64,000 nucleotides of DNA from Dermabacter indicis (lineage in GTDB: Bacteria; Actinomycetota; Actinomycetes; Actinomycetales; Dermabacteraceae): NCBI GenBank assembly GCA_001403775.1, contig CYUG01000011.1, positions 333,051 through 397,050 of the forward strand. The letters run 5' to 3'. The translations under genes and the position numbers were made by a program. How positions within the stretch are numbered: the first letter of the stretch is position 1; each line of letters starts with the position of its first letter. Positions 40,383 through 56,177 of this stretch are shown one piece after another. The notes below the pieces were generated by a model. It did not search any database. It was not told where the DNA came from and worked only from the letters and a program-made list of their open reading frames with translations.

Positions 40383-41404
40383 GAATTAACCTCGATCCGA
40401 AGCTCCGCCTTGATCGCCCTTCGAAATTCACCGATAGACGGCATTGGGAAAAAGAACACTTCGACAGCATGTCCAGTCAGGGAACGATTCTCAAGGCGAT
40501 TCCGCATTGATTTCACCCAGCCAATTATAGCTTTGTCCAGTTCGGTCTTCACTAATACTTCTTCACGTGGAAGCTTTGGATAGTTCTCATGCGCAAACCC
40601 GATAAGACAGGCACCACGCATCTCGACATTCGCCGAAAGGACCGATTTGTCGTTGAAGTACTCGAGCAGTCGGGCCGTCACCTCTGCGTTTCCAGCGTCG
40701 GCATAATGCCGGATCAGGAAGACATCCTGCTCATGAGCGGTACCCAACAGATACGGCGCGATACTGTCCATGCAATCTGTCATCGCGTTAGCGACCGAAT
40801 CATAGAGCTTTGCTTCACCCCAATAGACAGCTAGATCCCCGTTATCAAGGAGGTTCGCATGGACTCCGTCAGCACCATGATACTGCATCTCAGTACTCGT
40901 CTTTAGAGACATTTTGTTAAGGATCTGCGGTATCTGGAGCCCTTTTTCAAGTAGCGTATACAGAAGGAGTTCCGCGCCCTCCCCTGTATTGACCTGAGTC
41001 TGAGTGAATAGGCGTGCCGCTTCGTTAGCTAGACGAGTAATCTCCGGAATCTGCCTGTCTGGAGATAGTTGCCCAACCTTCTGAATTTCCGTCCGTGGGA
41101 TGCAGTAGTTGACGATTTGATTCGCAAGCTGCTGCGCTAGCACCTTGAGGCGAGGGACGCCTGAAGGGTCACTTCGAAGAAAGTGGCAGCGCACAATCGA
41201 GCGCGTGCCTTCAATAGCGATCGGTTCGCCGTAAGTAACAATCGAACTTTCTACTTCGTCCCAGCCGCCCCGCACGAGACGCTGAACCGCTTTGATCAAC
41301 GGCGCCTGTTCTTCAACCGCAGCCTGAGCCGCCTCGTTAATCATGCGATCGAGCCAATCTTGCTCCGGGCGGGCGAAGCGACGACACGCACTCCTGGGCT
41401 CCAC
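40379..41404 (-). CDS. hamA: Hachiman anti-phage system effector HamA (DUF1837)
   Basis: A 341-aa protein from GTG 41404; ATG 41344 is a possible shorter start, and neither has a good ribosome-binding site. The DUF1837 core shows GEGAELLLYTLLE (~141-153), KMSLKTSTEMQYHGADGVHA (~164-183) and YWGEAKLYDS (~194-203). The E...D...ExK arrangement resembles a PD-(D/E)xK-type nuclease active site. Known HamA proteins degrade DNA when HamB detects infection. The pair sits in the large element's left end, a common location for defence cargo. Confidence 0.87.
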   Translation of the reverse strand: MEPRSACRRFARPEQDWLDRMINEAAQAAVEEQAPLIKAVQRLVRGGWDEVESSIVTYGEPIAIEGTRSIVRCHFLRSDPSGVPRLKVLAQQLANQIVNYCIPRTEIQKVGQLSPDRQIPEITRLANEAARLFTQTQVNTGEGAELLLYTLLEKGLQIPQILNKMSLKTSTEMQYHGADGVHANLLDNGDLAVYWGEAKLYDSVANAMTDCMDSIAPYLLGTAHEQDVFLIRHYADAGNAEVTARLLEYFNDKSVLSANVEMRGACLIGFAHENYPKLPREEVLVKTELDKAIIGWVKSMRNRLENRSLTGHAVEVFFFPMPSIGEFRRAIKAELRIEVNS

Positions 41405-41715
41405 GAATCTTGTTGGTTCACCATCGACTTCCTCAGCTGAGGGTCGAGTGGACAGAAACGACCCGGGTCAGAGTCTCGCGTCAACCATTCTACCCGTATC
41501 GTCATGGCCATGACTGGGCGACACGTCGACGCCGACAGCCGTGTTGCTCCGAAGCCACAGGTCGGGTGCCGCTGTGCACAACCAAGGGGTACCGGTACCT
41601 CGCAGACTCCGACGTGCGGCACGGGCAGTCGCATCGATGGCAGTTAAGGGGCACGAGGCTGAAACAGGCGGCTCCAGATGACATAGCCCGGTCAGGAAAT
41701 TGTGGTGTCTCGCCA
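41405..41715. other. Intergenic between hamA and the relaxase C-terminal piece
   Basis: About 310 bp that should hold the hamAB promoter. A GGTACCGGTACC palindrome lies near 41,588. No gene supported. Confidence 0.4.
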
Positions 41716-43581
41716 TTACAGGTCGAGGTGCCGCGTCGCCTGGTTGGCGGACCGCCGAGGCTCGTTCTCGATGGTCGGGCGGGTCAGCGTTCGTAATGCT
41801 GTTTCGGCGCGGGCGTGGTCGATCTTCTGCGCTGTGCTCTCCGGTGGGGCGCCGAGCGGTGCCGGGTCGGTGATCTGGTAGCGATCACGGTAAGCGGCAA
41901 CGACGAGCGCGCTGCGTCGCCATTGCTGCCGCGCTCGCTCACCGGCGAGCATCGGACCGAGCGCCGTGGTCCAGGGCTCGTGGGTCTGGAGGGCGGTGTC
42001 GAGGACGGCTTCTGCTCGGGTTTCGATGAGTTGGCGACGCTCGGTCAGGGCTTGCTGCATGTCGGGGGTCATGGGGCCGGTGGCTTCGGGAATCAGGCCG
42101 GCGATGAGACGCAGGGCCTGGCGGGTGCGGCCGGAGCCGGCGGGTCGAGTAGTGACGCGGGCGAGGCGGTAGTGGATGACGAAGGCTATGTCGTCGGCGT
42201 CGGCGAACCCGCGCGCTGCGATGAGGCGTGGCAGGAGGGTGTCGACGTTGTGGTGGTTGGCTTCGGCCCGGCGCAGTTCCGCGGTCAGGACGCCGAAGGC
42301 GTCGGAGTCGATGACGGCTTGCGCTTGGTCGGTAGTGAGGCCGCTGGTGGTGAGGAGGGTGGTCCAGCGGTCGTGTTGGGCTGCGGCGGCGATGGTTTCG
42401 TATTCGGCGGCGAGTTGGGCGATCGAGCCCCACCGCTCCTGCTCGGCGGTGATGGTCTCGTGCGCCGACAGCTCAGCACCGCTGTGTTGGAGCACGCCGT
42501 AGAGGACCGTGCGGGCGGTGGCGTCGGGATTGTCGCCCGGATGCGACATGGCGTGATCATCGGGGCGGTCGAGGATGACGTAGGCCTGGTTCGATTCCCG
42601 TCCACGGGTCATGGCGACGTACAGGTTCTCCCTGGTGGTGGTGGGTTCGACGAGGACGTGGGCGGTGTCGGTGGTGAGGCCTTGGGCGCGGTGGGCGGTA
42701 ACGGCGTAGCCGAGGTCGACGTGATCGGCCACGTAGTCGGCGGGCAGGACGATGCTGTTGCCGAACCGGGCACCGGATCGACGAATCGTGACAGACCCAT
42801 CGCCGCGCACGGCGGTGATGGTCCAGGTTTGGTCGTTGCGGACCCAGCCGTGCCGGTTCCGCAGCCGCCGATCATTGTGGCGGGTGATGATCGTGTCACC
42901 CACGCCCACTGCCGATCCGTCGGACAGGGTGATTTCGGGGCCGGGTTTCAGCGTGCCGTCGAGGATGAGGTCGGCGCGGGCGCGGATGTTGAGGGCGCTG
43001 ACGTTCTCGCGGGTTTCGGCTATCAGCACCGACGCCAACCCCTGCTGTCGGTCGTGGCGCCAGGCGGTGTAGGCGGCATCGGTCATGGCCTCGGCGTCGC
43101 CATCGTAGATGCGGTCATGTGCCAGGTAGGTGTCGATGACTGGGGTGCGACCGTGCCGCAGTTGCAGGGATGCGGTCTTCTCCCAGGCGTGGGTGAAGCG
43201 GTGGACATCGACCAGTTCGGGGGCATCGTGGCGGTCGTGGATCAACAGGCTGAACGCACCCCCGGCATCGACGGACTGGAGCTGTGCGTAGTCACCGACC
43301 AGCAGCACCTTCGCCCCGGCCTCCTCAGCGGCCTTCGTGATCCGGTCGAGCGAGAGGGTGCCTGCGAGGGAGGCTTCGTCGATGATGACCAGCTGCCCGG
43401 CTTGGAAGGTGGCGCCGGTGTGTTGGTGGGCGGTCCACCACTTCGCCGTATTCTCCGTGGCGATTCCCAGATCGTCGGCCAGCACTTGCGCCGCCACCGC
43501 CGACGGGGCCAACCCCACCACCGACCCGGCACCATGCTCTGCTTCCCATGCCCGGCGCAAGGCGTTCATCGCCGTCGTCTT
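41716..43581 (-). pseudogene. MobF relaxase/helicase, C-terminal piece (separated by the nested element)
   Basis: From the AAG codon at 43581 this frame reads KTTAMNALRRAWEAEHGAGS, starting inside Walker A. It continues with the TraA/RecD-like SF1 helicase: Walker B VIIDEASLAG, motif III LLVGDYAQLQSV, and GYAVTAHRAQGLTTDTAHVL with the late motif YVAMTRGRESN. It ends with a helical tail at 41716, for 621 aa. The open frame extends to 43620 through element sequence (GRYAGQTRHVD). It joins in frame with the piece at 54,025-55,575 to give about 1138 aa, a normal MobF length. Confidence 0.9.
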
Positions 43582-43601
43582 GTCGACGTGTCGGGTTTGA
43601 C
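43580..43601 (-). repeat. Attachment junction, recombinase side
   Basis: Minus strand: arm GTCAAACCCGACACGTCGAC (43601-43582), then core AA (43581-43580), then relaxase GACGACGGCG. Together with the other junction it defines the attP arms. Confidence 0.8.
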
Positions 43602-43634
43602 CGGCGTACCTACCAGGCAACGAGGGAGGTCGTC

Positions 43635-45119
43635 ATGGACGGCACAGCAGCAAGCAGCGGTGTGGAGCAAGTGGTGGTGTACCTGCGCATCTCCGAGAAT
43701 CGTACCGGCGCAGAAGCCGGGGTAGAGCGGCAACGGCAGGGCTGTCTAGAGTTGTGCTCTCGGCTCGGGATCAGCGATCCGGCGATCTTCATGGACAACG
43801 ACATCTCGGCCTACTCGGGAAAGAAGCGCCCCGGATACCTCGATCTACTCGAACGGGTGAAGCTCGGGCCGTCGCGGATCGTCGCGTGGCATGTGGATCG
43901 CCTCTACCGTCGCCCACGCGAGCTGGAAGACCTCATCGACCTCGTGGAAGCCCATCCGATCAGGATCGAGACCGTCAAGGGCGGCGCGTTCGACCTGAAC
44001 ACCCACGAAGGACGTCTCATGGCGCGGCAGCTCGTCGCGATCGCTTCCTATGAGTCCGGGCACAAGGCCGACCGCATCCGCCGGGCGAACCAGCAGAAGG
44101 CCGAGCGCGGTGACTGGCACGGGGGTGCGAAGTACGGGTACGGCATCGGCGGCGTCCTCATCCCCGAAGAGGCCGCGGTGATCCGGGAGATGGCCGACCG
44201 GTTCCTCGCGGGACAGTCGGTGCGGCAGATCACCAGGTGGCTCAACCGCGACGGCGGGCCAACACCGCCATCGAAGGGCAAGAGCCGGTTAAACGTGTGG
44301 CACGAGAGCGCCGTCGGCTCAATCCTGTGCTCGGCACGCATCTCCGGGCAACGCGCCTACGAACCAGCCTCCAAGACGACCGCGACGTGGGAACGGCGCG
44401 ACCGGGCGATCCTGGGGCCGGGGAACTGGGAGGCGATCATCGCCCCGGACGAGACAGCGCGTATCCGGGCGGTGTTCAACCATCCCGACCGGCGCGTGGG
44501 CCGCTCGTCCAAGAGCCTGCTGGCAGGGCTGATCACCTGCGCCAAATGCGGCAACACCCTCGTCTCATCCGGGCTCCACCGGGGTGAGACCTCGATCGGG
44601 AAGCGACGCTTCTACCGCTGCCTCCCCCTCCCCGGTCGCTCGGAGCGCGGCGGACTCGTCGTGTCCGCACACGGCATCGAGACACTGGTAAGCGAGGCCA
44701 TGATCACCCGCCTCGCCGCGACCACACTGCCCACCGCCTCACCAGGTGAGGACGCGGGAGTGTCGGCGGCGATGGAGCAGATCACCGCCGCACGGCAGCG
44801 AATGGAGGACATGGCCCGCGACTACGGCGCGGGCCTCCTTTCCCGCACCGAGCTACACGCCGCGAAGACCGCCGCCACCGCGACCATTACGAATGCCGAA
44901 CTCGTGCTTGGGCGTAGTGCGAAGTCGTCGGCGTTGAAAGGCATCCCCATCGGCGACGAGCAGGCACTACGGCACGCTTGGGAGGTGGAGTGGTCGATCC
45001 CGCAGAAGCGGGCGATCATCGCCGCCCTGATCGACACCCTCATCGTCAAACCCGCAGAACCCGGCAAGACCGGGGCGAGGTTCCGGCCCGAACGTGTGGA
45101 ACTCACCTTCAAAGCCTGA
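43635..45119 (+). CDS. Large serine recombinase (integrase) of the nested element
   Basis: A 494-aa large serine recombinase. The resolvase domain shows YLRIS (catalytic Ser20), AWHVDRLYRRPREL, and FDLNTHEGRLMARQLVAIAS with the DRIRRAN region. The recombinase domain begins GDWHGGAKYGYGIGG, and the zinc ribbon has TCAKCGNTLVSSG and RFYRC. A coiled-coil segment follows, and the protein ends FRPERVELTFKA. ATG 43635 has GGGAGG upstream. It appears intact, unlike the recombinase of element A, and should catalyse integration at the Walker A codons of MobF genes. Excision would need a directionality factor. Confidence 0.93.
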   Translation: MDGTAASSGVEQVVVYLRISENRTGAEAGVERQRQGCLELCSRLGISDPAIFMDNDISAYSGKKRPGYLDLLERVKLGPSRIVAWHVDRLYRRPRELEDLIDLVEAHPIRIETVKGGAFDLNTHEGRLMARQLVAIASYESGHKADRIRRANQQKAERGDWHGGAKYGYGIGGVLIPEEAAVIREMADRFLAGQSVRQITRWLNRDGGPTPPSKGKSRLNVWHESAVGSILCSARISGQRAYEPASKTTATWERRDRAILGPGNWEAIIAPDETARIRAVFNHPDRRVGRSSKSLLAGLITCAKCGNTLVSSGLHRGETSIGKRRFYRCLPLPGRSERGGLVVSAHGIETLVSEAMITRLAATTLPTASPGEDAGVSAAMEQITAARQRMEDMARDYGAGLLSRTELHAAKTAATATITNAELVLGRSAKSSALKGIPIGDEQALRHAWEVEWSIPQKRAIIAALIDTLIVKPAEPGKTGARFRPERVELTFKA

Positions 45120-45141
45120 CACCCACCGCGCACCCGCGAGA

Positions 45142-45402
45142 TCAGTTCTCGGGGCGAGTGAGGACACGGAGCTTGGCCAGCGCCACCGTATCGGTCACTC
45201 CGACCGACACCCCGGAACGTTCACATGCCTCCCGTGTCCACGCCACGGGGTCGAAGCCTGGCGGCAGGCCACTCCGCGCCTGGCCCCGCCGCTCAGGCGG
45301 CGGAGGAGGTACGGACATTCCGGGCGTGCCGAGTGCTGCTGTGGTCGCCTTCATAACAGACAGGTGCGCAGCCGAACTACGACACGCGGTATCTGCGCTC
45401 AC
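45142..45402 (-). CDS. Small hypothetical protein convergent with the recombinase
   Basis: An 86-aa frame whose C-terminal half, LPPGFDPVAWTREACERSGV onward to TVALAKLRVLTRPEN, is well composed. The N-terminal part is uncertain, and ATG 45318 or 45354 could be the true start; none has a convincing ribosome-binding site. The position beside the integrase would suit a recombination directionality factor, but there is no motif to support that. Function unknown. Confidence 0.45.
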   Translation of the reverse strand: MSADTACRSSAAHLSVMKATTAALGTPGMSVPPPPPERRGQARSGLPPGFDPVAWTREACERSGVSVGVTDTVALAKLRVLTRPEN

Positions 45403-45442
45403 AAGCAGGCACTACATGTAGCTTTTTCTCTCGGGTTCACCC

Positions 45443-46309
45443 TCAGGCGTCGGCGCGGGGCTTGGCTGCCCAGATCGCGGCCAACAAGCCGGTGTCGCAA
45501 CGCAACGAGTCGAGAGGTTCCTCACCGAGCAGGCGCAGCAGAATGCCGTCGCCGGTCGGGGTGCCCGCATGTTTCCGATCAGGATGCCCGAGCACGATCC
45601 GCAACAGCGCCGTCCATGATCGTGACGGGATACCCAGCCGCTCTGGGGTGGCGCGGTCGCGGCGCAGCACCTCCACCGCATTCGCACGAGAGGTCAGGTC
45701 AGCGAGCCGGTAGGCGACGTGCTCGACGCAATCAGCCACGAGCACCGCATCCCACCCTGTTGAGACAAACAGCTCGACTATCGCCGACAACGCGGCGGCG
45801 ACGCGGACACGGTCGGCATCGTCGGGGTCGTCTTCGTCGTCGGTCACGCAGTTGACGGAGAAGGCGGGGTGGTAGTCGGCCAGGTGCTCCCGCTCGGCAA
45901 AGCGGATCGCATCGTGGAACCCCGCGATCCGGGACATGTGGCGCACCTTCCCGGACGAGACCAGCATCCCGGCCGCTCGAATCTCGACACCGCAGGTGAT
46001 CTGCACGGCCCGAGTGACCACCGCCCACGGATTGCGCGCCTTCCGTGTCGATGCGGCGAGCATGACCTCGAACGCTGCCGAGGCAATCTCCCAAGGGTCC
46101 AGGCCGTGTTTATGGGCCAATCGCCGGTACCTGGCTGTCGTGTAGCGCATCAGTTCCGCCGCTTCGCGATCAACCCGCCATGCTCCGGGGCCGGACTCAT
46201 GCAGCCGGATCAGCAGAGCGCGCAGCCTTTCCGGGCTCTCGAACCCGTGGCTGGCCGAGCCCGCCGAGGCCGCAGGATCGCCTGCTCCAGGTGCAGTGTG
46301 CTCGTCCAC
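45443..46309 (-). CDS. Conserved-looking element protein of unknown function (288 aa)
   Basis: GTG 46309 follows GGGAGG by 7 nt. Residues ~45-110 (AELMRYTTARYRRLAHKHGL, IASAAFEVMLAASTRKARN, PWAVVTRAVQITCGVEIRA) are helical and loosely recall sigma-factor region 2 or a replication/transfer regulator. The C-terminus (IPSRSWTALLRIVLGHPDRK through LLGEEPLDSLRCDTGLLAAI) is also helical. No membrane segment or catalytic motif is visible. Its ribosome-binding site lies in a perfect hairpin (see 46,317). It probably acts in maintenance or transfer of the nested element; I do not recognise the family. Confidence 0.65.
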   Translation of the reverse strand: MDEHTAPGAGDPAASAGSASHGFESPERLRALLIRLHESGPGAWRVDREAAELMRYTTARYRRLAHKHGLDPWEIASAAFEVMLAASTRKARNPWAVVTRAVQITCGVEIRAAGMLVSSGKVRHMSRIAGFHDAIRFAEREHLADYHPAFSVNCVTDDEDDPDDADRVRVAAALSAIVELFVSTGWDAVLVADCVEHVAYRLADLTSRANAVEVLRRDRATPERLGIPSRSWTALLRIVLGHPDRKHAGTPTGDGILLRLLGEEPLDSLRCDTGLLAAIWAAKPRADA

Positions 46310-46316
46310 GGTGACG

Positions 46317-46332
46317 CCTCCCGGAAGGGAGG
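46317..46332 (-). promoter_or_regulatory. Hairpin sequestering a Shine-Dalgarno sequence
   Basis: Minus strand: CCTCCC (46332-46327), loop TTCC, GGGAGG (46322-46317), then 7 nt to GTG 46309. The GGGAGG is the apparent ribosome-binding site of the 288-aa gene and is perfectly paired. Confidence 0.55.
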
Positions 46333-46569
46333 TGCACCACCAGCACCCAAACCAGGACGCGCAACAGCGGGCCGCTACGCCCGTCGCTCATCAGCAGGTG
46401 CGCCGCCTATCCCGCGCCGTCCACGACCTTGTCGGCGGGGTGCGACTCGCCCAGAAGCGGTCTTGCGTCCTTGCGCGCGAATGGGACTGATCCGAAGGTC
46501 ACCCCAGCGTTGCTCCCCGATGAACTGAGGGACCAACTCGCTGCAACGCTGGGACGCGCCCTCGGAACT

Positions 46570-47112
46570 TCAACCAGCGTTTCCATGACCCGCAGCCCCG
46601 TATTTGCGGGCGAGGCGTTCGAGTGTCGCCATTGTGCGGGTGGTGACGGGGACTTCGAGCAGAGACTCGAGAAAGCCTGTGACGTTGCCTGCGGTGTTCT
46701 TCGGCTTCCAGCAGGAGCTCCATGCGTGAGAGTCGTAAAGGCCTCGAACTTCCACAAGCCCGTCGGGACTGCGCAGCGGCACTGATATCTGCGGCTTGTC
46801 GATGGTGTCGAAGAAGGACACCATGAGTCGGTACACGTTCTCAGCGGGATCGACTTCCGGAGCATCATTCAGGAGACTTGCGATCTCCGTGAGGGATCGA
46901 GTGGCGAAGCTCTGGTGGAATCCTCTTGCGGTCAGGGTATTTCGGGCTTGACCAATCAACGGTTCGGGGTCGTCGGCATCGAAGACGACTGTTCCGTTGG
47001 TCTGGAAGCAACTCGCGACCGATGGGCCGCCGAAAGCGTCTACGAGCGCCGTCGCGGTGGGGCTTCCTGGGTGCCCGAGGTTGAGGTTTCGGAACAGTGC
47101 GACGTAGTTCAT
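46570..47112 (-). CDS. DUF1697 family protein
   Basis: A 180-aa protein of the DUF1697 family. The N-terminus MNYVALFRNLNLGHPGSPTA and the following ALVDAFGGPSVASCFQTNGT (first ferredoxin-like unit), with a second unit ending ERLARKYGAA, match the family, whose function is unknown. The start overlaps the stop of the upstream alpha/beta hydrolase by 4 nt. It is third in the MarR-linked operon. No lesions seen. Confidence 0.8.
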   Translation of the reverse strand: MNYVALFRNLNLGHPGSPTATALVDAFGGPSVASCFQTNGTVVFDADDPEPLIGQARNTLTARGFHQSFATRSLTEIASLLNDAPEVDPAENVYRLMVSFFDTIDKPQISVPLRSPDGLVEVRGLYDSHAWSSCWKPKNTAGNVTGFLESLLEVPVTTRTMATLERLARKYGAAGHGNAG

Positions 47113-47828
47113 GGGTTCTCTACCACCTCGATGATCTGTCGCGTCACGTCCTCGGGGGCGGTGACCATCGGCCAGTGAGAGCTATCGATCGTGCTCATCG
47201 TCCACCCGGTGGTGCTGCTCATGTCCGGTGCGACGGGAGGATGCGTACGCAGGCACTTCACGTAGTGCAGGCGCACGCCTGTTGCGAGGGTCGGGATGGG
47301 CTGCTCGATCGCGGGCTGGGCGTAGGTGCCGATCGGCTGCGGGGTCACATGCTCATCCAGCCAAGCGAGATCCCGATCGGTGATCCCATTGCCTGGGTAC
47401 ATCTGGTCGAGCTGATCGCGCGTGAACCAGGGCGTTGCGCCGTCGCGAGCGATGCTTCGCATGAAGCCCTCGGTTTGCGCGCCCATGGCATCGAACCAGG
47501 ATGCGCCGGGCTGCGGGAGCGCCGCGTCGAGAAAGATCACCGAGCGCAGATGCTGGGCGACCCGGCTCAGTGCTCCGGCCGCAACGTATCCGGCGAAGGA
47601 GTGCGCCACGAGGGTGGCGTCATCCAGACGGCTCACCTCGATGGCGAGGTCATCAATCCAGTCGGAGAGCGTGACAGAGGCAGGAAGCGTCTCGTCGTTG
47701 CCGGTCGTACGCAGTTGCGGCGTGACAACGGTCAGCCCACGCTGCTGGAGCAGCGGACTGACCCGGCTCCAGGCCCAGGGTCCGAGTCCGCCGCCACCGA
47801 CAAGAACGATAGGGCCGGGGGTGTTCAC
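47109..47828 (-). CDS. Alpha/beta hydrolase
   Basis: A 239-aa cytoplasmic alpha/beta-hydrolase. The oxyanion region is LVGGGGLGPWAW, the nucleophile Ser lies in LVAHSFAGYVAAG, and the catalytic His is in SSHWPMVTAPEDV. The fold and size resemble esterases of the MenH/EstB group. It overlaps both neighbours by 4 nt, so the epoxide-hydrolase-like gene, this gene and the DUF1697 gene are translated as one unit. Substrate unknown. Confidence 0.85.
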   Translation of the reverse strand: MNTPGPIVLVGGGGLGPWAWSRVSPLLQQRGLTVVTPQLRTTGNDETLPASVTLSDWIDDLAIEVSRLDDATLVAHSFAGYVAAGALSRVAQHLRSVIFLDAALPQPGASWFDAMGAQTEGFMRSIARDGATPWFTRDQLDQMYPGNGITDRDLAWLDEHVTPQPIGTYAQPAIEQPIPTLATGVRLHYVKCLRTHPPVAPDMSSTTGWTMSTIDSSHWPMVTAPEDVTRQIIEVVENP

Positions 47829-48922
47829 GAGTGTGCTCCTAACTGCGTTATCCGCTGCATGAAGAGGCTGAGGTCGTTGACCAGTTCTGTCGGCGAGTCG
47901 AGTGCGGCCATGTGCCCGCCGGTGCCGTGCTCATACCATCCGACGAGGTTGTTGTGCCGGTCCGAGACGGCGTGCGAAGCGAAGTCGGCCACGCCGAACT
48001 TGCTCACGGCGGTAGGCACCGGCGAGAACACAGGAGTTGCGTCCGGTCTGCTTGTCGCGTACAGCCGCATACTGGTGGCCGCGCTGTTGGTGAGCCAGTA
48101 CAGAGTGGCATTGGCGAAGATGAAGTCGTCTCCGATGCCGAAATCGGTTCCGAGCGCGGCCTGCCACAGGCTGTACTTGTCGAGTTGCCACGCGAGAAGT
48201 CCCACCGGTGAGTCAGCCAGAGCGAATGCGAGCGAGTCCGGCCGCTCTGCCTGGAGACGGAGGTAGGCGCTACCGTTCATCGCATAGCGCTGTAGGTCGC
48301 GCCATGCTTGGTCCTCGGCCGTGCCATCCGCGAGAAACCCGTGGAGTCCGGCGCTGACATGTACGCCAGCGATTCGATCAGGGGCGAGGGTGCCCATGGC
48401 GCGGGCGACCACGGAGCCCCAGTCCTCGCCGTGCACCGCGAAGCGGTCGAATTCGAGCACTTCCATCATCTTTAGCAGCAGCTTGGAAGAGTCCAATGCA
48501 GACCAGGACGCTCGCGGCAACGGGGATGTGCCGAAGCCTGGCATCGAGACCAGTACCAGCTCAGAACACACCGCGCGCAGCCCACCGATGACGCGATGGA
48601 ACATCAGAAACGATGTCGGCCAGCCATGAACAAGCAGCAGAGGGAGAACGCCCTCACCCGAAAAGCGCAAGACATGCAGGTCGATACCGTCGACTTGCAC
48701 CATCGCGTGCGACTCGGCTCCCGCGGCGCGCTCCGTTGGTTCGAGCCAGTCAATCCATCGCGTCACTGCCTCACCAACAACGAGGTGGCTCAGACCGTAG
48801 TCGCCGTCGACCAGGGACGCGGTGGCGGGAAGCCGCGATGCACGCAGCCGAGTGCGCAACTCACCTGCTGCCCAGTCGAGATTGGGCAGCACGCCAGACA
48901 GGAGTTGGTAGTATGCTGTCAT
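47825..48922 (-). CDS. Epoxide-hydrolase-like protein (EHN domain plus alpha/beta hydrolase)
   Basis: A 365-aa protein with the N-terminal EHN-type segment (YQLLSGVLPNLDWAAGELRT; TRWIDWLEPTERAAG) and a hydrolase core. HGWPTSFLMF supplies the oxyanion hole, Asp in VHGEDWGSVVARAMG is the nucleophile, and His is in GTGGHMAALDSP. This is the microsomal-type epoxide hydrolase family, which opens epoxides to diols. It is first in the operon and divergent from a MarR gene, with a palindromic operator between. The most likely role is detoxification or catabolism of a reactive compound. Confidence 0.85.
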   Translation of the reverse strand: MTAYYQLLSGVLPNLDWAAGELRTRLRASRLPATASLVDGDYGLSHLVVGEAVTRWIDWLEPTERAAGAESHAMVQVDGIDLHVLRFSGEGVLPLLLVHGWPTSFLMFHRVIGGLRAVCSELVLVSMPGFGTSPLPRASWSALDSSKLLLKMMEVLEFDRFAVHGEDWGSVVARAMGTLAPDRIAGVHVSAGLHGFLADGTAEDQAWRDLQRYAMNGSAYLRLQAERPDSLAFALADSPVGLLAWQLDKYSLWQAALGTDFGIGDDFIFANATLYWLTNSAATSMRLYATSRPDATPVFSPVPTAVSKFGVADFASHAVSDRHNNLVGWYEHGTGGHMAALDSPTELVNDLSLFMQRITQLGAHS

Positions 48923-48958
48923 ATCTATAGGCTACCGCGGCCTGACAGTATCCTGTCA
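48916..48958. promoter_or_regulatory. MarR operator between the hydrolase operon and marR
   Basis: TGACAG (48943-48948), TATC, CTGTCA (48953-48958) is a perfect dyad 11 bp before the marR ATG. A CTGTCA half-site lies at 48916-48921, overlapping the hydrolase start region. Both divergent promoters could be controlled from here. Confidence 0.7.
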
Positions 48959-48969
48959 ATCGGAGGAGC

Positions 48970-49413
48970 ATGGAGCAGGTCATCGACGCAACGCTGCACG
49001 CCATATGGGAGGCCAATCGTCTACTCCGCGACGAAGGCGAACGCATGGCCGCATCGGTGGGCCAGACCCATGCACGCCGCATGGTTCTTCAGACAGCCGG
49101 GTCGGGCGCCACCGTTCCCGACATCGCCCGTCGTTTACGCTTGCAACGCCAGAGCGTCCAGCGGGTAGCAGACCAGCTCGTCGAGGAAGGGTTTGCCTGC
49201 TACCAGGACAACCCCCGCCACCGGAGGTCAAAGCTTCTCTTGACGACACCGGCAGGTGATGACGTCCTGGACCGGCTGGCAGAAGTCCACGACGACTGGA
49301 TTCGCGAGATCGGTGAGCTTGCTCCCTCCGCGCCCTGGGACGAAATGCGTCGAGGCCTCGAAGGATTGGTTGACGCGCTCAAGACAAAGAATCCAGAAAC
49401 GCAGAACGAATAG
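48970..49413 (+). CDS. MarR-family transcriptional regulator (hydrolase operon)
   Basis: A 147-aa winged-helix protein. The recognition region is TVPDIARRLRLQRQSVQRVA, followed by DQLVEEGFACYQDNPRHRRS (wing) and LLLTTPAGDDVLDRLAEVHD (dimerisation). ATG 48970 follows GGAGGA. It is divergent from the three-gene hydrolase operon, with the TGACAG/CTGTCA dyad immediately upstream, so it probably represses that operon and itself until a hydrophobic ligand binds. Confidence 0.87.
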   Translation: MEQVIDATLHAIWEANRLLRDEGERMAASVGQTHARRMVLQTAGSGATVPDIARRLRLQRQSVQRVADQLVEEGFACYQDNPRHRRSKLLLTTPAGDDVLDRLAEVHDDWIREIGELAPSAPWDEMRRGLEGLVDALKTKNPETQNE

Positions 49414-49733
49414 CTCTCCGCCAGGCGGTTGCCCAGTTTCCTGGCGCGACGGGTGGCGATCAGGGTTGAGACCGACAGTGATAGGTACGGGCGTCCGCTG
49501 AACTCCGCTACCCCTGCAAGACGACGAACGCACGCGTCCTTAGCCACTATCATCCCAGTGATCTCGTCATCGCGATCACATGCTTGCCCGACCCCGCCAC
49601 CCGGCAGCCTCGCACCCCGCCGAAAGACACCCGCCGCAGACCCGCCCCGCGAGCTACCGACCTGTCACCCCTCGCATACTCCACTCCCTGCTCCAAAGGA
49701 TGCACGCATTTTACGGCGGGGCCGGGGTGCACA
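49414..49733. other. Intergenic, no supported gene
   Basis: About 320 bp between marR and the hairpin before the nested element's relaxase. This is a plausible location for an oriT, since MobF nick sites often lie just upstream of the relaxase gene. No nick motif recognised. Confidence 0.35.
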
Positions 49734-49763
49734 CCTCCCTCATGAGACCACTCATGAGGGAGG
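49734..49763 (+). promoter_or_regulatory. 13-bp-arm hairpin covering the relaxase Shine-Dalgarno
   Basis: CCTCCCTCATGAG (49734-49746), loop ACCA, CTCATGAGGGAGG (49751-49763): perfect pairing. GGGAGG at 49758-49763 lies 5 nt before ATG 49769 of the nested relaxase, so translation would be masked. A role as a nick-region hairpin is an alternative. Confidence 0.65.
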
Positions 49764-49768
49764 GCAGG

Positions 49769-52700
49769 ATGAAGGGCGGCGTGCTCTTGTTCCGCGGCAG
49801 CGGCGTGGCCGCGCGCCGGTACGTCGAGGCCGACCGTTCCCGCGCCGATGAGTACTACCTCGGCGCAGACGACGCCATAGCCGAGTACGCCGTGATCGAC
49901 GCGACCGGCGAGGTCACCGCCATCCGATCCCTGACCGCTGACGAGTACGAGGGGTGGGTGGACTGGATCAACCCCGTTACCGGGGAGTCGATGGGCACCC
50001 CGCGCAAGCCCGGCCAGGTGCGGAAGGGGTCGCCGTTGTTCGCGGAGATGACGATCAACGCCCCCAAGTCCCTGTCGGTCGCCGCCGCCCTGCACCCGAA
50101 GGTGTCGGAAGCGCTGGATGCCGCGCAGCGGGACGCAGCGCAGGAGATTCAACGGTTCCTCGGTCAGCACTCGGTCACCCTTGCGAGGCCGCGTGGTGCG
50201 CAGGAAGTCCTGCCCATAGAGCGCATGCAGACGGTCGCGATCACGCACAAGCCGAGCCGGGCGGGTGATCCGCACCGGCATATCCATTTCCAGATCGGCA
50301 CGAGGGTGTGGGCGGGAAGTGGCGCGCGCTGACCACAGCAGCCCTGTTCAAGCAGCAGGGAGCGATCCGCGCCCTCGGCACGGCGGTGATCGCCGCGCAC
50401 CCCCAGCTCGCCGCCACGCTCGCGGAGCACGGGTTGACGCTTGACCCGGTGACCGGTGAGGTGGTCGAACTGGAACCGTTCAACGCCTCCATGTCGAAGC
50501 GGTCGGCGCAGATCAAACGGAACCTGGACCGCATGGGGGCCGAGTGGCAAGCGGAGCATCCCGGCGAGACTCCCGGCCCGGCGCTCACGGCGCGGATGCA
50601 GGATGCCGCGTGGGCGTTCCAGCGCCCCAGCAGGAAGCCCGCAGACCTCAAAGACGAGCAGTGGTGGCGACAAGAACTCACCGATGCCGGATACGCCCCC
50701 GATACCCTCACCCGTCGTGCCGCTCAAGCCGCGGTGTCGGTGGATGATCTGGCAGTGCAGGACGTCGCCAGTCGTGCGCTGGATCGCTGCGCCGCTGCCG
50801 CATCCACCTGGACCCCTCACACCGTGGCCGAGCAGGTCGCGAGGATCATTACCGAGGCGGACGTACGGGCGACCCCTGCGCGGTTGCGGGAGTTCATCGA
50901 CCTGGCCACCGACCTCGCGACAGAGGATTGTTTCTCCGTGCTGCCGCCGGGAGCACCGGCCCCGAAGCATGTGGCGCACCTGACCAGCCTGAACGTGATC
51001 GCCGACGAGACCGCTCTCCGCGACCAACTCACCGCCGCGACGCCGGAACGAGAGCCGGAACACCCCGACGTCACCCGCAAAGCGCAAGCCGCCAGACTCG
51101 ACGCCGGGCAGACGGTCGCCGCCGCCGCGGTCGCCTCGACCGACCCGCTGGTGATCGTGGAAGGAGCGGCGGGCAGCGGGAAGACGACGATGTTGCGCAC
51201 CGCCATCACCGTTGGTGCCGAGCACGGCAGGCCGTCGCGAGTGGTCGCATCGACGCTGCGGGCCGCGCAGGTTGCCGAGGAAGAACTCGGGGTGCCCGCA
51301 ACGAGCGTTGCGGCGCTCGTGCATGCGCACGGGTGGCGGTGGAACGACGACGGCGTATGGACACGACTCGCACCCGGCGACACCGACCCTACAACCGGCA
51401 GTACCTACAACGGACCGCCCGAGAACGCGCGGCTGGATCGCAGGGTGCGGGTAATCGTGGACGAAGCCGGGATGCTCGACCAAGACACCACCCACGCCCT
51501 CCTCACCATCACCCAAGAAGCAGGCGCAACCGTCGCGCTCATCGGCGACCGCGCCCAGCTCCCCGCGGTCGGCCGGGGCGGGGTTCTCGACATGGCCGCA
51601 CAGATCAGGGGCCGCACCTACGACATGACCGAACTGCACCGCTTCGCTGATGCCGAGTACGTGGCCCTCACCCTCGCCATGCGGGACCGGGGGCACCCCG
51701 GTGCGATCTGATCCAAACTCGCAAGAACAACAGCGACCTCGGGGTCGCGAACCGGCAGCAATGGATCGTGCAGCACATCACCGACGAGGGGACCGTCTAT
51801 GCCCGAGAAGCAGCCAGCGGACGCAAGAGCCCCCGCACGGTTGCGCTCCCTGCCGAGTATCTGAGCGAGCACGCGCACCTGTCCTATGCCGCGACCGCCT
51901 ACGGCGTCCAGGGCGCAACCGTCAACACCGCGCACACGATACTGAGCGAGGCGACAAACGCGGCGGGCGTCTACGTCGGCATGACCAGGGGCCGCGACAC
52001 CAACCGGCTGCACGTCGTCGCGGAGAACCTCACGGATGCTCGGGCGCAGTTCATCGAGGCAATGGAACACGATCCCGCTGACCGTGACCTCGACCACGCC
52101 ACCGCCCAAGCCGTCGAGGCCGTGCAGGGCCTCGTCGCAGACGGCCCTGTCAGGCTGGTCACCGATGAACTCGCACCGCTCGACCAGGAGGTCGAGCGTG
52201 CCGAGCGGCGGGCGCAACGGTGGGAGCAGACTGCCGCCAGGCTCGATGCCCAACGCTCCGTGCATCGTGCCGAGGACGAAGAGCAGGCCGCCGCGCTCCG
52301 CAGAGCCGAGGCAGAAGCCGAGCAGATACGGGCCGAAGTTGCTCGACCGCTCACCGTTCAGGCCGAGCACGATGGCGCAGCCTACCTCGACGCCGTCGAG
52401 ACCGAGGCGGCCGCGAGTACACGGCTTGTCACCGCCCGGCGATTCGGCAGGCGCAAGGCCCGCACCGAGCACCACGCCGCGACCGAACAGGCCCGGACAG
52501 TCCGCGTGCAAGTACGTGAGGTCTGGGGTCTGGAGCCGCCTCGCAACGCCGAGGCCCTGCCGGGATGGGCGGCGCGGCAGGCCGAACAGCATGCCGAAGC
52601 CGACCCAAGCGTGATCGACGCCGCCCAGCAGATCGAAATCGCGAGAGCCGCTCGCGACCAAGTGCGGCGACAGCACGAGCAGGAACGTCGTGCGCTGCTG

Positions 52701-52994
52701 GTCAGCGAGTACGGAGCCGACCGGGCCCGCCACGCCCACCTTGGCATGCGCACCCCCAACGCGCACCGCCAAGCGCGAGACGCCAAGGCCCACGCCGCCG
52801 TGCTCCGCGCCGAGGCCGACGAACTCCGCAGCCTGCCCGTCAACGAGGCTGCACAGCGGATCGGAGCCAAGCGCGCCGAGCAGGAGCGCACCCGGCAACA
52901 TGCGGCACAGCGGGCACGGCAACTCCGCGACCCGTTCGAGCGCGAGCCCCACCGGCCCGACCCGGGCCACGACGGGCCGACACGCGGTCTGTGA
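49769..52994 (+). pseudogene. MobF relaxase/helicase of the nested element, frameshifted and internally deleted
   Basis: ATG 49769 reads MKGGVLLFRGSGVAARRYVE and continues through the relaxase domain, with the HUH-type motif DPHRHIHFQIG. At ~50,312 one G appears missing: expected VWAGKWRAL, observed VWAGSGAR-stop. The second frame runs KWRALTTAALFKQQGAIRAL through Walker A EGAAGSGKTTML and VIVDEAGMLD, to a stop at 51711. Homology then resumes in a third frame at DLIQTRKNNSDLGVANRQQW, with motif GAYGVQ-like YAATAYGVQG and VGMTRGRD, to 52994. A stretch of helicase is absent at ~51,700, so the gene is inactive. Confidence 0.9.
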
Positions 52995-53165
52995 CACCGC
53001 TCATTTACGCCCACGCAACCCGCGTGCGCTCAGAAGAACAGCAGCGCGCGGATCGAGTCGCAACAGAGCTCCGGCCCGACGCTCGTATCTCAGGGTGGCG
53101 TGTAGGTCGATCGTGCCTCCTACCGGCCACCAGAACGAGACGAGGCTGGCCGGGTAGGCTGGAAG

Positions 53166-53933
53166 GTGTCTCTCCCTCGCCACAAGATGATCCCCGTGCC
53201 TGCCGGGTCGATCGTGTTGCGGGATGCCAGGACGAAGACCTCGCGCACCGCGGAGCTACGGCAGTTCCACATTGCTTCCACCCCAGTGACGTGGGAGTTG
53301 TACTCGCGCGTGCTGGAGGCCCCGGTACCCGGCGATGAGGACGAGAACGCGCCTGCGCACTCGGTGTCGTGGCTGAACGCCGTGAGCTGGTGCAACGCGT
53401 TGTCCGTCAAGGCGGGGCTTGCTCCGGCTTACGACGTTGGCGACGCAGGGGTGTCCTGGGACGTGAGCGCTGACGGCTTTCGGTTGCCGACAGAGGCCGA
53501 ATGGAAGTGGGCCTGCCGCGCGGGATCGACAGGCCCGCACTACGGCCCGCTTCCGGACATCGCGTGGACCGATGCCGACGACGCGACAGGCACACAGCGC
53601 GTCGGACAGAAACAGCCCAACGCCTTCGGCCTGTTCGACATGCTGGGCAACGTGTGGGAGTGGTGCTGGGACTACTCCGACCCCGCCAGATACGCCGACT
53701 ATCGCGTACTGCGCGGCGGCGGACGGGCGGACAAGCATTGGAGCGTTCGCGCCTCAGTACGGCGAGGAAGCATGCCGGGAGCGCAACTGGATGACGTCGG
53801 GTTCCGCGTCGCACAGGGCGCCGCGGGAGAGGCTGCCTGTCACGCCGGTCAAGGCTGGTCGCAGAAAGCCGATCGAGATCGAGCGGACGTCGACGGCCCG
53901 GTTCCTGTCGGCTGGACACCGCTACGCACATAA
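53166..53933 (+). CDS. SUMF1/FGE-fold protein lacking the FGE cysteine pair
   Basis: A 255-aa protein with the formylglycine-generating-enzyme/EgtB-like fold: MIPVPAGSIVLRDARTK, SVSWLNAVSWCNALSVKAGL, DGFRLPTEAEWKWACRAGST, FGLFDMLGNVWEWCWDYSDP and RVLRGGGRADKHWS. The segment after RGG, where FGE carries its copper-binding Cys pair, has none, so formylglycine formation is unlikely. GTG 53166 follows a -10-like TAGGCT (53155-53160), suggesting a leaderless mRNA; ATG 53187 is an alternative. No sulfatase gene is nearby. It is the last gene before the right end of the nested element. Confidence 0.8.
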   Translation: MSLPRHKMIPVPAGSIVLRDARTKTSRTAELRQFHIASTPVTWELYSRVLEAPVPGDEDENAPAHSVSWLNAVSWCNALSVKAGLAPAYDVGDAGVSWDVSADGFRLPTEAEWKWACRAGSTGPHYGPLPDIAWTDADDATGTQRVGQKQPNAFGLFDMLGNVWEWCWDYSDPARYADYRVLRGGGRADKHWSVRASVRRGSMPGAQLDDVGFRVAQGAAGEAACHAGQGWSQKADRDRADVDGPVPVGWTPLRT

Positions 53934-54002
53934 GCGAATGATCCGCGACGCGAGCGGGCCGAGGCCAGTCGCACTCCCGAGTCTTTGAAGCTCAGGAGTG
54001 GC

Positions 54003-54024
54003 GTCAAACACGACATGTGGTATT
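54003..54024 (-). repeat. Attachment junction, SUMF1 side
   Basis: Minus strand: relaxase GCTGGG, core AA (54024-54023), then arm TACCACATGTCGTGTTTGAC (54022-54003). Seven terminal bases of the arm, read as GTCAAAC, are identical to the other arm. Confidence 0.8.
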
Positions 54025-55575
54025 CCCAGCCCCCGCCGGCCCCACCAACACATCCACCACCCGACCCGACACCGCAACCGACGCCAAAGCTGCCGCCTGG
54101 TCCAGGCCGAGCACCCGACCCTCGGCATCGGGCTTGCTCGTGATCGTTTCGACCGTGGCCAGGTCGATACTCGGGCCAGTCGTGGCACGGGCCCGGGTGA
54201 GAAGACGGTCCTCAGCCGAGAGCAGGGTGTCGGAGGAGAACACGGTCGAGTGGTTCGGGCGGAACACGCTGGTGCCGTCCAGGCGGCAGAACTCCACCGG
54301 ACTGGCGGTCAGTTCGGGTGGGGTCAGGCGCAGGGACGCGTGTTCGGCGGCGTCAGCGACCATGGCGGTGATGGCTTCGCGGTCCTCGACGGTGGCGAAC
54401 CGCCACCCCATCGTCTGGCGGGCGGCTTCGGCCATCAGGTTCCAGCGCCGCCACGTCGAACGCTTCTCACCGACCACCTCGACCACCGAGCGCCCCGCCT
54501 GTCCGATCAGGTCCAACGGTACATCATCAGCCCGCAACAGCAACTGCCGCTCCCCGACAGTGAAGCTCCGCACCCACACGGTGGCATCTGATGGTTGCCG
54601 TCCGTGGGTGGCCACATACTCGGCCACCAGCCGGTCCTTCTCCACCTCGATCTGCCGCGCCCGGGTGGAGAGCTCCGCCACCAGATCCTCGGGGACGTCG
54701 GTGATCGCCCAGGACGGGTTCCGGTCGCCGCCCATTTTCCGTGGCTCCCACGTCACGCCGAAGGTGCGGGTCATGTGGTCGGCGAACACGGCCTCGTGCA
54801 GCTCGGACAGGGCGACGACCGCGGCATGCATCGGCCGCCCATCCAGACTCCGCCACTTCCCATCCAACACCGTTTGGGACTTGTTGCTGATCACCACATA
54901 CGTGTGCAAGTGCGGGTCCCCGGCGCGGGAGTCGAAGTGATCGAACGCGGGCGCGATGTGCCCGGTGACGTCGACTTGTGCAACCGCGCCATCACCAGCG
55001 GTTGCACCGGCGCGGGTGGCTGCAACCTCGCGCTCCATGAACCCAACCACCGCCGTAACCGCCTCATGATGGGCTTGCGCGATCAACGCCTGCGTTCCCG
55101 CGTCTGCAACCGCCCACAACACCGACGCCGACTTCGGCACACTGAACAACGTGAAATCAAACCCCGCCACCGCACGCCGCGACCCCCGCGCCGCCTCCTC
55201 AGACTCGATCTGCGCCACCCTCCGACCCCGCTCCACAGGGCTCAGCGACGGGTCCAGTTCCGCGACACGGTCTGCAACCCGATCCGCCGTCGAGCTATAC
55301 ACCGGATACGCCCTCCCCAACGGCACACCGGTTATCGGGTCCCGCCCCATTCCCACCAGAAGCTGAAGCTGCGCCTCCGACACCTGCGCACCCGGCGTGA
55401 GTTCACCATGCCCCAGGGCGGCCACGCCCGAACCGAGCCAGCGCCCGGGTGGAGTGCCAGCCTCGGCGTAATAGCGAGTCAGCGGAGTCGACAGCGACCG
55501 GTCACCATCACCAGCCGCCACAGTGCGCAGCAGGTACGTGTAGCCGTCCCCGGCCGACATCACCCGCATCGACAC
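54025..55575 (-). pseudogene. MobF relaxase/helicase, N-terminal piece (separated by the nested element)
   Basis: GTG 55575 (or ATG 55569) begins VSMRVMSAGDGYTYLLRTVA, the typical TrwC/TraA start. The relaxase domain follows (RAVAGFDFTLFSVPKSASVL; HUH His motif in RAGDPHLHTYVV) and then the helicase up to VVDVLVGPAGAG, the Gly-rich half of Walker A. The open frame then reads six element residues (NTTCRV) to a stop at 54004. The relaxase half alone could still nick DNA, but the helicase is lost. No ribosome-binding site is clear, so the exact start is uncertain. Confidence 0.88.
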
Positions 55576-55698
55576 CGTCGCCCAAACTACCCCTCGCCCG
55601 GTCGTCACACAGGTGAGCTGGCAGCCACCGAACCTCGATCTGCAAGAGGCGTGGCAGCTCCGGAAGATGACGCGATCCTGGTGCCCGGAGGTAACCTC

Positions 55699-55836
55699 AT
55701 GGAGCTGGGCCTGGGGCGGCACGACATGGCTTTCTGGTCGTTGTGGCACAGAGGCTTGGTCTTGGATGCCGTCGGGGGCTTCGACGCGTACATCAGAGCC
55801 GAGACGCGAGAGGACAGCGACCGCGCGCTGGATTGA
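55699..55836 (+). CDS. Possible small protein divergent from the relaxase
   Basis: ATG 55699 follows GGAGGTAACCTC and reads MELGLGRHDMAFWSLWHRGL and on to ETREDSDRALD (45 aa). It has an aromatic, partly hydrophobic N-terminal half and an acidic tail. No family recognised. The good ribosome-binding site is the main support. Confidence 0.35.
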   Translation: MELGLGRHDMAFWSLWHRGLVLDAVGGFDAYIRAETREDSDRALD

Positions 55837-56177
55837 TTCCAAGCACAGGGGCTGCCGCCCTCACCACACGTGTCTGGATCGGGAGCTTACGGCCGACGGC
55901 TGCCTCTCGAACGGGAGGATCGCGTTGCTGATCAGCCACCCGGTGCCGGCCGCATCCTGCACGCTCCTGCCACAGACATGAAGGCCCTGGGCCGGACCGG
56001 GACCCACACACCAGTGATGGTGGCGTGACCAAATGAGGCACGGGTGACGACGGCACGCGGTGCCTCCGGGCTGACTGTCCCGAGTGAACTAGAGGGACCA
56101 AAGCGGCACGTTAGATCCCACCACACCCCAAATTCATTGGAGCCTGTTGACGCAGCGCGAGGCACCGCCTAATCTAG
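55837..56177. other. Intergenic, no supported gene
   Basis: About 340 bp between the small frame and the MarR-type operator. No domain, repeat or hairpin of note. Confidence 0.35.

Follow-up and report, generated by a model that had tools for sequence, protein, structure and literature searches.

Within the 64,000-bp stretch of the Dermabacter indicis genome analyzed here (hereafter the window), a nested mobile element carries a gene for a MobF/TrwC relaxase-helicase that is spread over three plus-strand frames between positions 49,769 and 52,994. The locus raises the question of what happened to this relaxase, and of whether an element that has lost it can still move. We consider it likely that the pseudogene represents the decayed relaxase gene of an integrative mobilizable element (IME) that sits inside the MobF gene of another element, that the IME could still excise, and that it is probably stranded in this genome.

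Two lesions in the relaxase of the nested element

The three plus-strand frames hold successive parts of one gene. Fragment 1 (49,769-50,310) matches positions 4-168 of the Pfam TrwC model and fragment 2 (50,311-51,704) positions 172-284, so that the two are consecutive parts of one domain; fragment 2 also contains the start of the helicase, with an AAA_30 domain. Fragment 3 (51,705-52,994), which comprises the C-terminal helicase part and the tail, has no Pfam match alone, but in alignments it corresponds to the C-terminal half of full-length homologues.

When the gene is aligned with 11 homologues that are uninterrupted, drawn from eight genera and in some cases identical copies, both frame breaks fall where an earlier note on this DNA had seen them, and the nature of the first changes. 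That note had proposed a single missing G near 50,312 and had expected the residues VWAGKWRAL. All 11 homologues are instead longer by 4 bp at the break (50,310/50,311), which amounts to the loss of one tandem-repeat unit; the single missing G is thus rejected, with the same effect on the frame, and the intact proteins have a different string of residues there. The helicase segment reported absent at about 51,700 is indeed gone, and the alignment sizes the deletion (51,704/51,705) at 229 bp, or some 76 helicase codons. In intact relatives, a short stretch of similar sequence occurs at each edge of this deletion. TrwC and SF1 helicase domains lie in one frame in relatives such as locus L004, and do not in the window gene. 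Since three frames and a 229-bp gap mean that the gene can no longer yield its relaxase as a single protein, self-mobilization by its own relaxase is very unlikely, as the earlier note had held. Relaxase decay is by itself an ordinary finding.

An element within the relaxase gene of another element

The broken gene lies in an element of 10,443 bp net of its duplicated TT core (43,580-54,024), whose limits follow from the ends shared by its relatives and from the frame of the joined flanks. The core dinucleotides TT lie at 43,580-43,581 (attL) and 54,023-54,024 (attR), the former within the Walker A lysine codon of a second, minus-strand MobF relaxase gene, that of the host element. The N-terminal part of the host relaxase is at 54,025-55,842 (TrwC, E=9.5e-76) and its C-terminal helicase part at 41,716-43,579 (AAA_30 and TraI_hel_assoc_N). 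When the host flanks are joined, Walker A is in frame and a single uninterrupted ORF of 1,227 codons results. On the coding strand, the TT at which the crossover lies reads as both A residues of the lysine codon AAG, and attP is an inverted repeat. Judged from the sequence, the element evidently inserted in the Walker A lysine codon and thereby split the host relaxase gene, and its excision could restore the host frame.

The element encodes a large serine integrase with an intact frame (IntA, 43,638-45,119, plus strand; Pfam Resolvase, Recombinase and Zn_ribbon_recom) and a conserved protein of unknown function (45,443-46,309, minus strand) that is present in IntA elements and in many elements of a second integrase, IntB. 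Its cargo consists of a DUF1697 protein (46,570-47,112), an alpha/beta hydrolase (47,109-47,828) and an epoxide-hydrolase-like protein (47,825-48,922) on the minus strand, and of a MarR regulator (48,970-49,413) and a formylglycine-generating-enzyme-like protein (53,166-53,933) on the plus strand. By eye, the conserved protein resembles a protein of the host element remnant (L114:62-757); neither of the two has a Pfam or NCBIfam match.

Two features of an IME are seen in the window copy, namely an integrase of its own with definable attachment ends (a serine integrase, attL and attR with their TT core, and an inverted-repeat attP) and an element free of transfer channel genes, as its ORFs comprise the integrase, the conserved protein, the cargo and the relaxase. 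The third, a complete relaxase, is found in the related loci L004, L005 and L014 and is absent from the window and from the related locus L003. Because its relaxase is incomplete, we regard the window copy as a defective, IME-derived element.

A host element with no visible transfer channel

To the right of its relaxase gene the host element encodes ArdC-like, Prim-Pol and DUF2637 proteins. Beyond DUF2637 there follow a protein that by eye is like that of the 45,443 ORF, a ParB-like protein (named by eye and without a Pfam match), SCO6881 (matched below the curated cut-off) and SCO6880, which is truncated and matches over 349 of 477 model positions. Past the truncated SCO6880 the remnant adjoins housekeeping genes, by eye those for NadD, ProB, ObgE and Rne. 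The coupling-protein/VirB4 profiles PF02534, PF12846, PF19044 and PF12696, each of which matches in some control genomes, have no match in the whole genome (a 17-contig draft), and across the same genome TrwC matches only the two split genes, with no other TrwC-type helper relaxase. The earlier note had suggested that the element would depend for transfer on its host, or on excision after co-transfer. With the host relaxase split, SCO6880 truncated and zero T4CP/VirB4 matches for the four Pfam profiles in the 17-contig draft, dependence on the host is unsupported, and we reject host-driven transfer.

IntA and IntB elements in MobF genes

To place the element among its relatives we used the best 80 of 434 confirmed relatives of relaxase fragment 2. 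As these loci were collected by similarity of the element's own relaxase, and several are copies of one element, the fractions given here do not describe a random sample. IntA integrases are 93-96% identical among the window, L004, L005, L014 and L048, and all five of these insertions, the ones with both ends readable among the window and the best 80 of 434, rejoin a MobF Walker A. Where one end is readable, the left end lies in MobF in L003, L037 and L039 and the right end in L042, and no MobF flank is recognizable at the right ends of L006, L022 and L045. One further left end, from a Brevibacteriaceae genome (L108:1-1443), lies in the Walker A of an ABC-transporter ATPase (named by eye), and IntA is therefore not confined to relaxase targets. 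L004 and L005 share a 12,057-bp element that is 99.88% identical, within host relaxases whose C-terminal parts are 71% and 46% identical, respectively, to the window host protein. At a strict threshold, IntA turned up outside the window genome in 3 of 297 genomes from the order (G015, with 49% identity, plus G127 and G270) and, in a census of the class, in none of 394 genomes beyond the window's own, which makes it rare.

IntB is about 30% identical to IntA and inserts at a TA in a segment of the MobF gene that we take to be helicase motif V. Each of the two serine integrases thus has a specific site in a conserved conjugation gene, Walker A for IntA and motif V for IntB. Among the 20 IntB copies with two ends (again from the best 80 of 434), 14 rejoin a clean MobF motif V (L033 and L044 having identical host flank letters), four lie elsewhere (L009, L010, L035 and L049), and L028 is a chimera of two relaxases. 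Each flank of this last copy (L028:2416-15844) is a motif V piece from a different relaxase, and the two pieces point in opposite directions, which suggests that it arose by recombination between two nested copies. IntB inserts in both orientations, as is expected from its palindromic core: L029 and L031 share an 8,884-bp element (99.99% identical) that lies in opposite directions relative to the host gene. The remaining one of the 20 copies, a Kocuria soli contig (L011:1-18596), has both its ends precisely at the IntB attachment core and holds the element without flanks, as would be expected of a circular or multi-copy element, of which it is at most suggestive.

An IntB census found the integrase in 7 of 396 genomes. 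Host MobF pieces are present at the census loci L117-L120 and, weakly, at L125, and none were found in the short flanks of L121-L124. The IntB attL pattern had no matches in the viral_contigs set. Beside the own-relaxase copies L045-L082, MobF pieces occur at just four loci (short pieces at L045 and L049, and also L048 and L063), so nesting is not shown for the more distant copies.

Near-identical IntB elements recur in several genera. The L029-type element is nearly identical in several genera and encodes an Erm-type 23S rRNA methyltransferase (L029:13179-13988) that scores above the curated cut-off of NF000499 and below those of the named Erm types. The own-relaxase genes of L007-L012 and L049, which come from several actinobacterial genera, show no difference across 3,600 bp; in L010 and L049, where both ends are seen, the element measures 18,596 bp, and its cargo in L010 includes MFS transporter, hydrolase and dehydrogenase genes.

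Relaxase integrity and a candidate oriT

Over query residues 75-1150, to which the count was restricted, the own relaxase is intact at 68 of 81 loci (the best 80 of 434 and the window), broken at nine and truncated at four. Breakage is thus not the norm of the family. It affects four of the seven IntA copies in MobF, the three intact ones being L004, L005 and L014, compared with two of the 20 IntB copies in MobF (L026 and L027, leaving 18 intact), although some of the relaxase frameshifts in draft genomes may be sequencing errors. The four broken IntA copies comprise the window and L003, which share the same lesions, L048, which has a frameshift, and L042, which has an insertion of about 1.4 kb.

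Just 5' of the window relaxase lies a conserved block (49,700-49,763) that is also kept in relatives whose relaxase is intact. It contains a perfect 13-bp hairpin, with 13 of 13 positions paired in the window (arms 49,734-49,746 and 49,751-49,763). Over 19 distinct rows of the alignment, 96.8% of cells pair, a value reached by 0 of 500 shuffles, and the covariation score was reached by 2 of 500; just two pairs change on both sides, a number reached by 68 of 500. From its position and conservation, we regard the block as a candidate oriT.

The same dead element in a second family

Brevibacterium mcbrellneri ATCC 49030 (L003; L109 and L110 come from this genome too) aligns to window positions 41,715-52,641 at 97.5% identity, and both relaxase lesions are present. 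The dead element therefore occurs in two families, the Dermabacteraceae (window) and the Brevibacteriaceae, and by one route or another it went on spreading after its relaxase was lost. The window genome shares its family with genome G011, a stretch of which is identical to Brachybacterium alimentarium (L055) over 300 bp. The two copies of the element differ at 60 of 9,062 positions (0.66%), as against 213 of 1,865 (11.4%) in the adjacent part of the host gene, and the aspS stretch of the window matches the B. mcbrellneri genome at only 73% identity.

The host DNA directly beside attL tells a different story from that farther out. Its first 105 bases contain no mismatches between the window and L003, as against about 10% farther out, and the same 105 bases show 12 to 42 differences in other pairs of IntA host flanks. 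The comparison covers the attL side, the L003 assembly having no right-hand junction. This tract weakens the idea that the dead element entered the two hosts cleanly and independently; given these identical bases, homologous recombination or composite transfer would be at least as likely as site-specific entry for the pair. In the own relaxase we counted 16 nonsynonymous and 7 synonymous changes between the copies, compared with 17 and 8 in the other genes of the element; pN/pS is similar in the two, and the changes are too few to show selection.

Stranded, carried along, or moved by others

In the account that we favor, a serine integrase evidently inserted its element at the lysine codon of Walker A in the MobF relaxase gene of another element. 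The 4-bp loss, of a kind that slippage would produce, and the 229-bp deletion, in either order and before or after this insertion, killed the element's own relaxase. As the integrase frame, both att ends and the oriT-like hairpin are retained, excision may still be possible and would restore the host frame, and it is possible that a relative's relaxase could mobilize the element in trans through the surviving hairpin. In this genome the element is probably stranded, since the profiles that would mark a transfer channel are missing for the host element as well.

How the dead element came to lie in two families is a separate matter. We lean slightly toward an explanation by decay, in which both elements are dead and the B. 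mcbrellneri copy arose through composite transfer and homologous recombination, the dead element itself never being mobilized. The truncated transfer region of the host, together with the absence of T4CP/VirB4 profile matches, is consistent with this, as are the 105-bp host tract shared with L003 and the pattern of changes in the relaxase, which resembles the one in the remaining genes of the element. However, the integrase frame, the att ends and both halves of the host gene are intact in the window, unlike what old decay would leave.

Alternatively, the element may persist as a passenger with an oriT and no relaxase, the relaxases of its IntA and IntB sisters acting on the conserved oriT-like block so that spread continues. 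Such a history would account for a dead element in two families that is far more alike than the host gene around it and the aspS stretch, and it agrees with the conservation of the upstream block in relatives with an intact relaxase. IntA and IntB insertions also occupy one host gene together in L037 and L039, and the relaxase is broken more often in IntA than in IntB copies, with the caveat that two of the four broken IntA copies share their lesions. However, the mismatch-free host tract past attL is more easily explained by homologous recombination or composite transfer than by a clean hop, and this genome holds no helper relaxase of the TrwC kind. We therefore regard this explanation as tentative and rather unlikely.

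A broader version of the same idea is that two distantly related integrases each came to target a catalytic helicase motif of MobF genes, that their elements have a relaxase module in common which lives by silencing the relaxases of resident conjugative elements and supplying its own, and that relaxase-dead cheaters, the window element among them, are moved by their sisters. We find this possible but rather unlikely; if true, it would describe a guild of relaxase-in-relaxase parasites across the Actinobacteria, some members of which carry an erm-type gene.

Finally, an assembly or sequencing error, which the earlier note had named as what would refute its claim and which a short indel in a G-rich repeat might invite for lesion 1, is very improbable as the source of either lesion, because identical lesions occur in the independent assembly of B. 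mcbrellneri, from another family and beside a host flank that differs by 11.4%, which argues against cross-contamination as well.

Relation to known nested elements

The nearest kind of element that we know of is the group of streptococcal IMEs whose serine integrases insert in traG, maff2 or snf2 of ICEs of the Tn5252 superfamily, as described in the available text of PMC5357655 and PMC5704250 and treated also in PMC7168690. According to the first two of these sources, and as here, a relaxase-bearing element with a serine integrase interrupts a gene of its host that is conserved and serves conjugation, a single ICE may hold several such elements or a single gene may be entered at two sites, hosts are often decayed, and excision has been proposed to restore the gene. 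As far as those descriptions extend, our elements differ in that their hosts are actinobacterial, that the target is the relaxase gene itself, that the intruder brings a relaxase of the same MobF superfamily as its target, and that the two integrases cut catalytic helicase motifs (the Walker A lysine codon and motif V).

Residence of a mobile element in a relaxase gene, with an effect on conjugation, is also known from Lactococcus lactis, where the available text of PMC6003770 describes the group II intron Ll.LtrB in the relaxase gene of a conjugative plasmid. On that description Ll.LtrB is an intron, unlike the serine-integrase element studied here. To our knowledge, it has no relaxase of its own.

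The state of the window element resembles that of the iOriT class of hitchers. In the part of PMC11389934 that deals with the iMOB and iOriT classes, gene loss can turn a relaxase-bearing element into an oriT-only one that needs the relaxase of another; in the window the relaxase is likewise lost, and movement by another's relaxase is putative.

In the available text of PMC3218068, which covers actinobacterial ICEs, the relaxase-nested arrangement was not found, and a literature search covering few subscription papers turned up no prior account of actinobacterial elements that target relaxase genes. In our view, elements inserting in catalytic codons of other elements' relaxase genes are a variation on a kind of nesting that is already known. 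The available text of PMC5357655 and PMC5704250 leaves it open whether an element nested in a conjugation gene rides along harmlessly or blocks its host. In the present case the blocked gene is the relaxase itself, two integrases enter it at defined codons, and cases of all three kinds, intact, broken and doubly inserted, are at hand, so that blocking, restoration by excision and dependence on sisters are all directly testable. The IntB branch extends the matter to near-identical copies across several genera, one version of which carries an erm-type methyltransferase gene.

The region beside the host relaxase also differs between the two genomes. Downstream of it in the window, HamA/HamB (Hachiman) are encoded at 37,818-41,404, and beyond the corresponding relaxase end in B. 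mcbrellneri there are SIR2 and HerA genes (L130:428-3731), so that a defence hotspot beside the host relaxase is possible.
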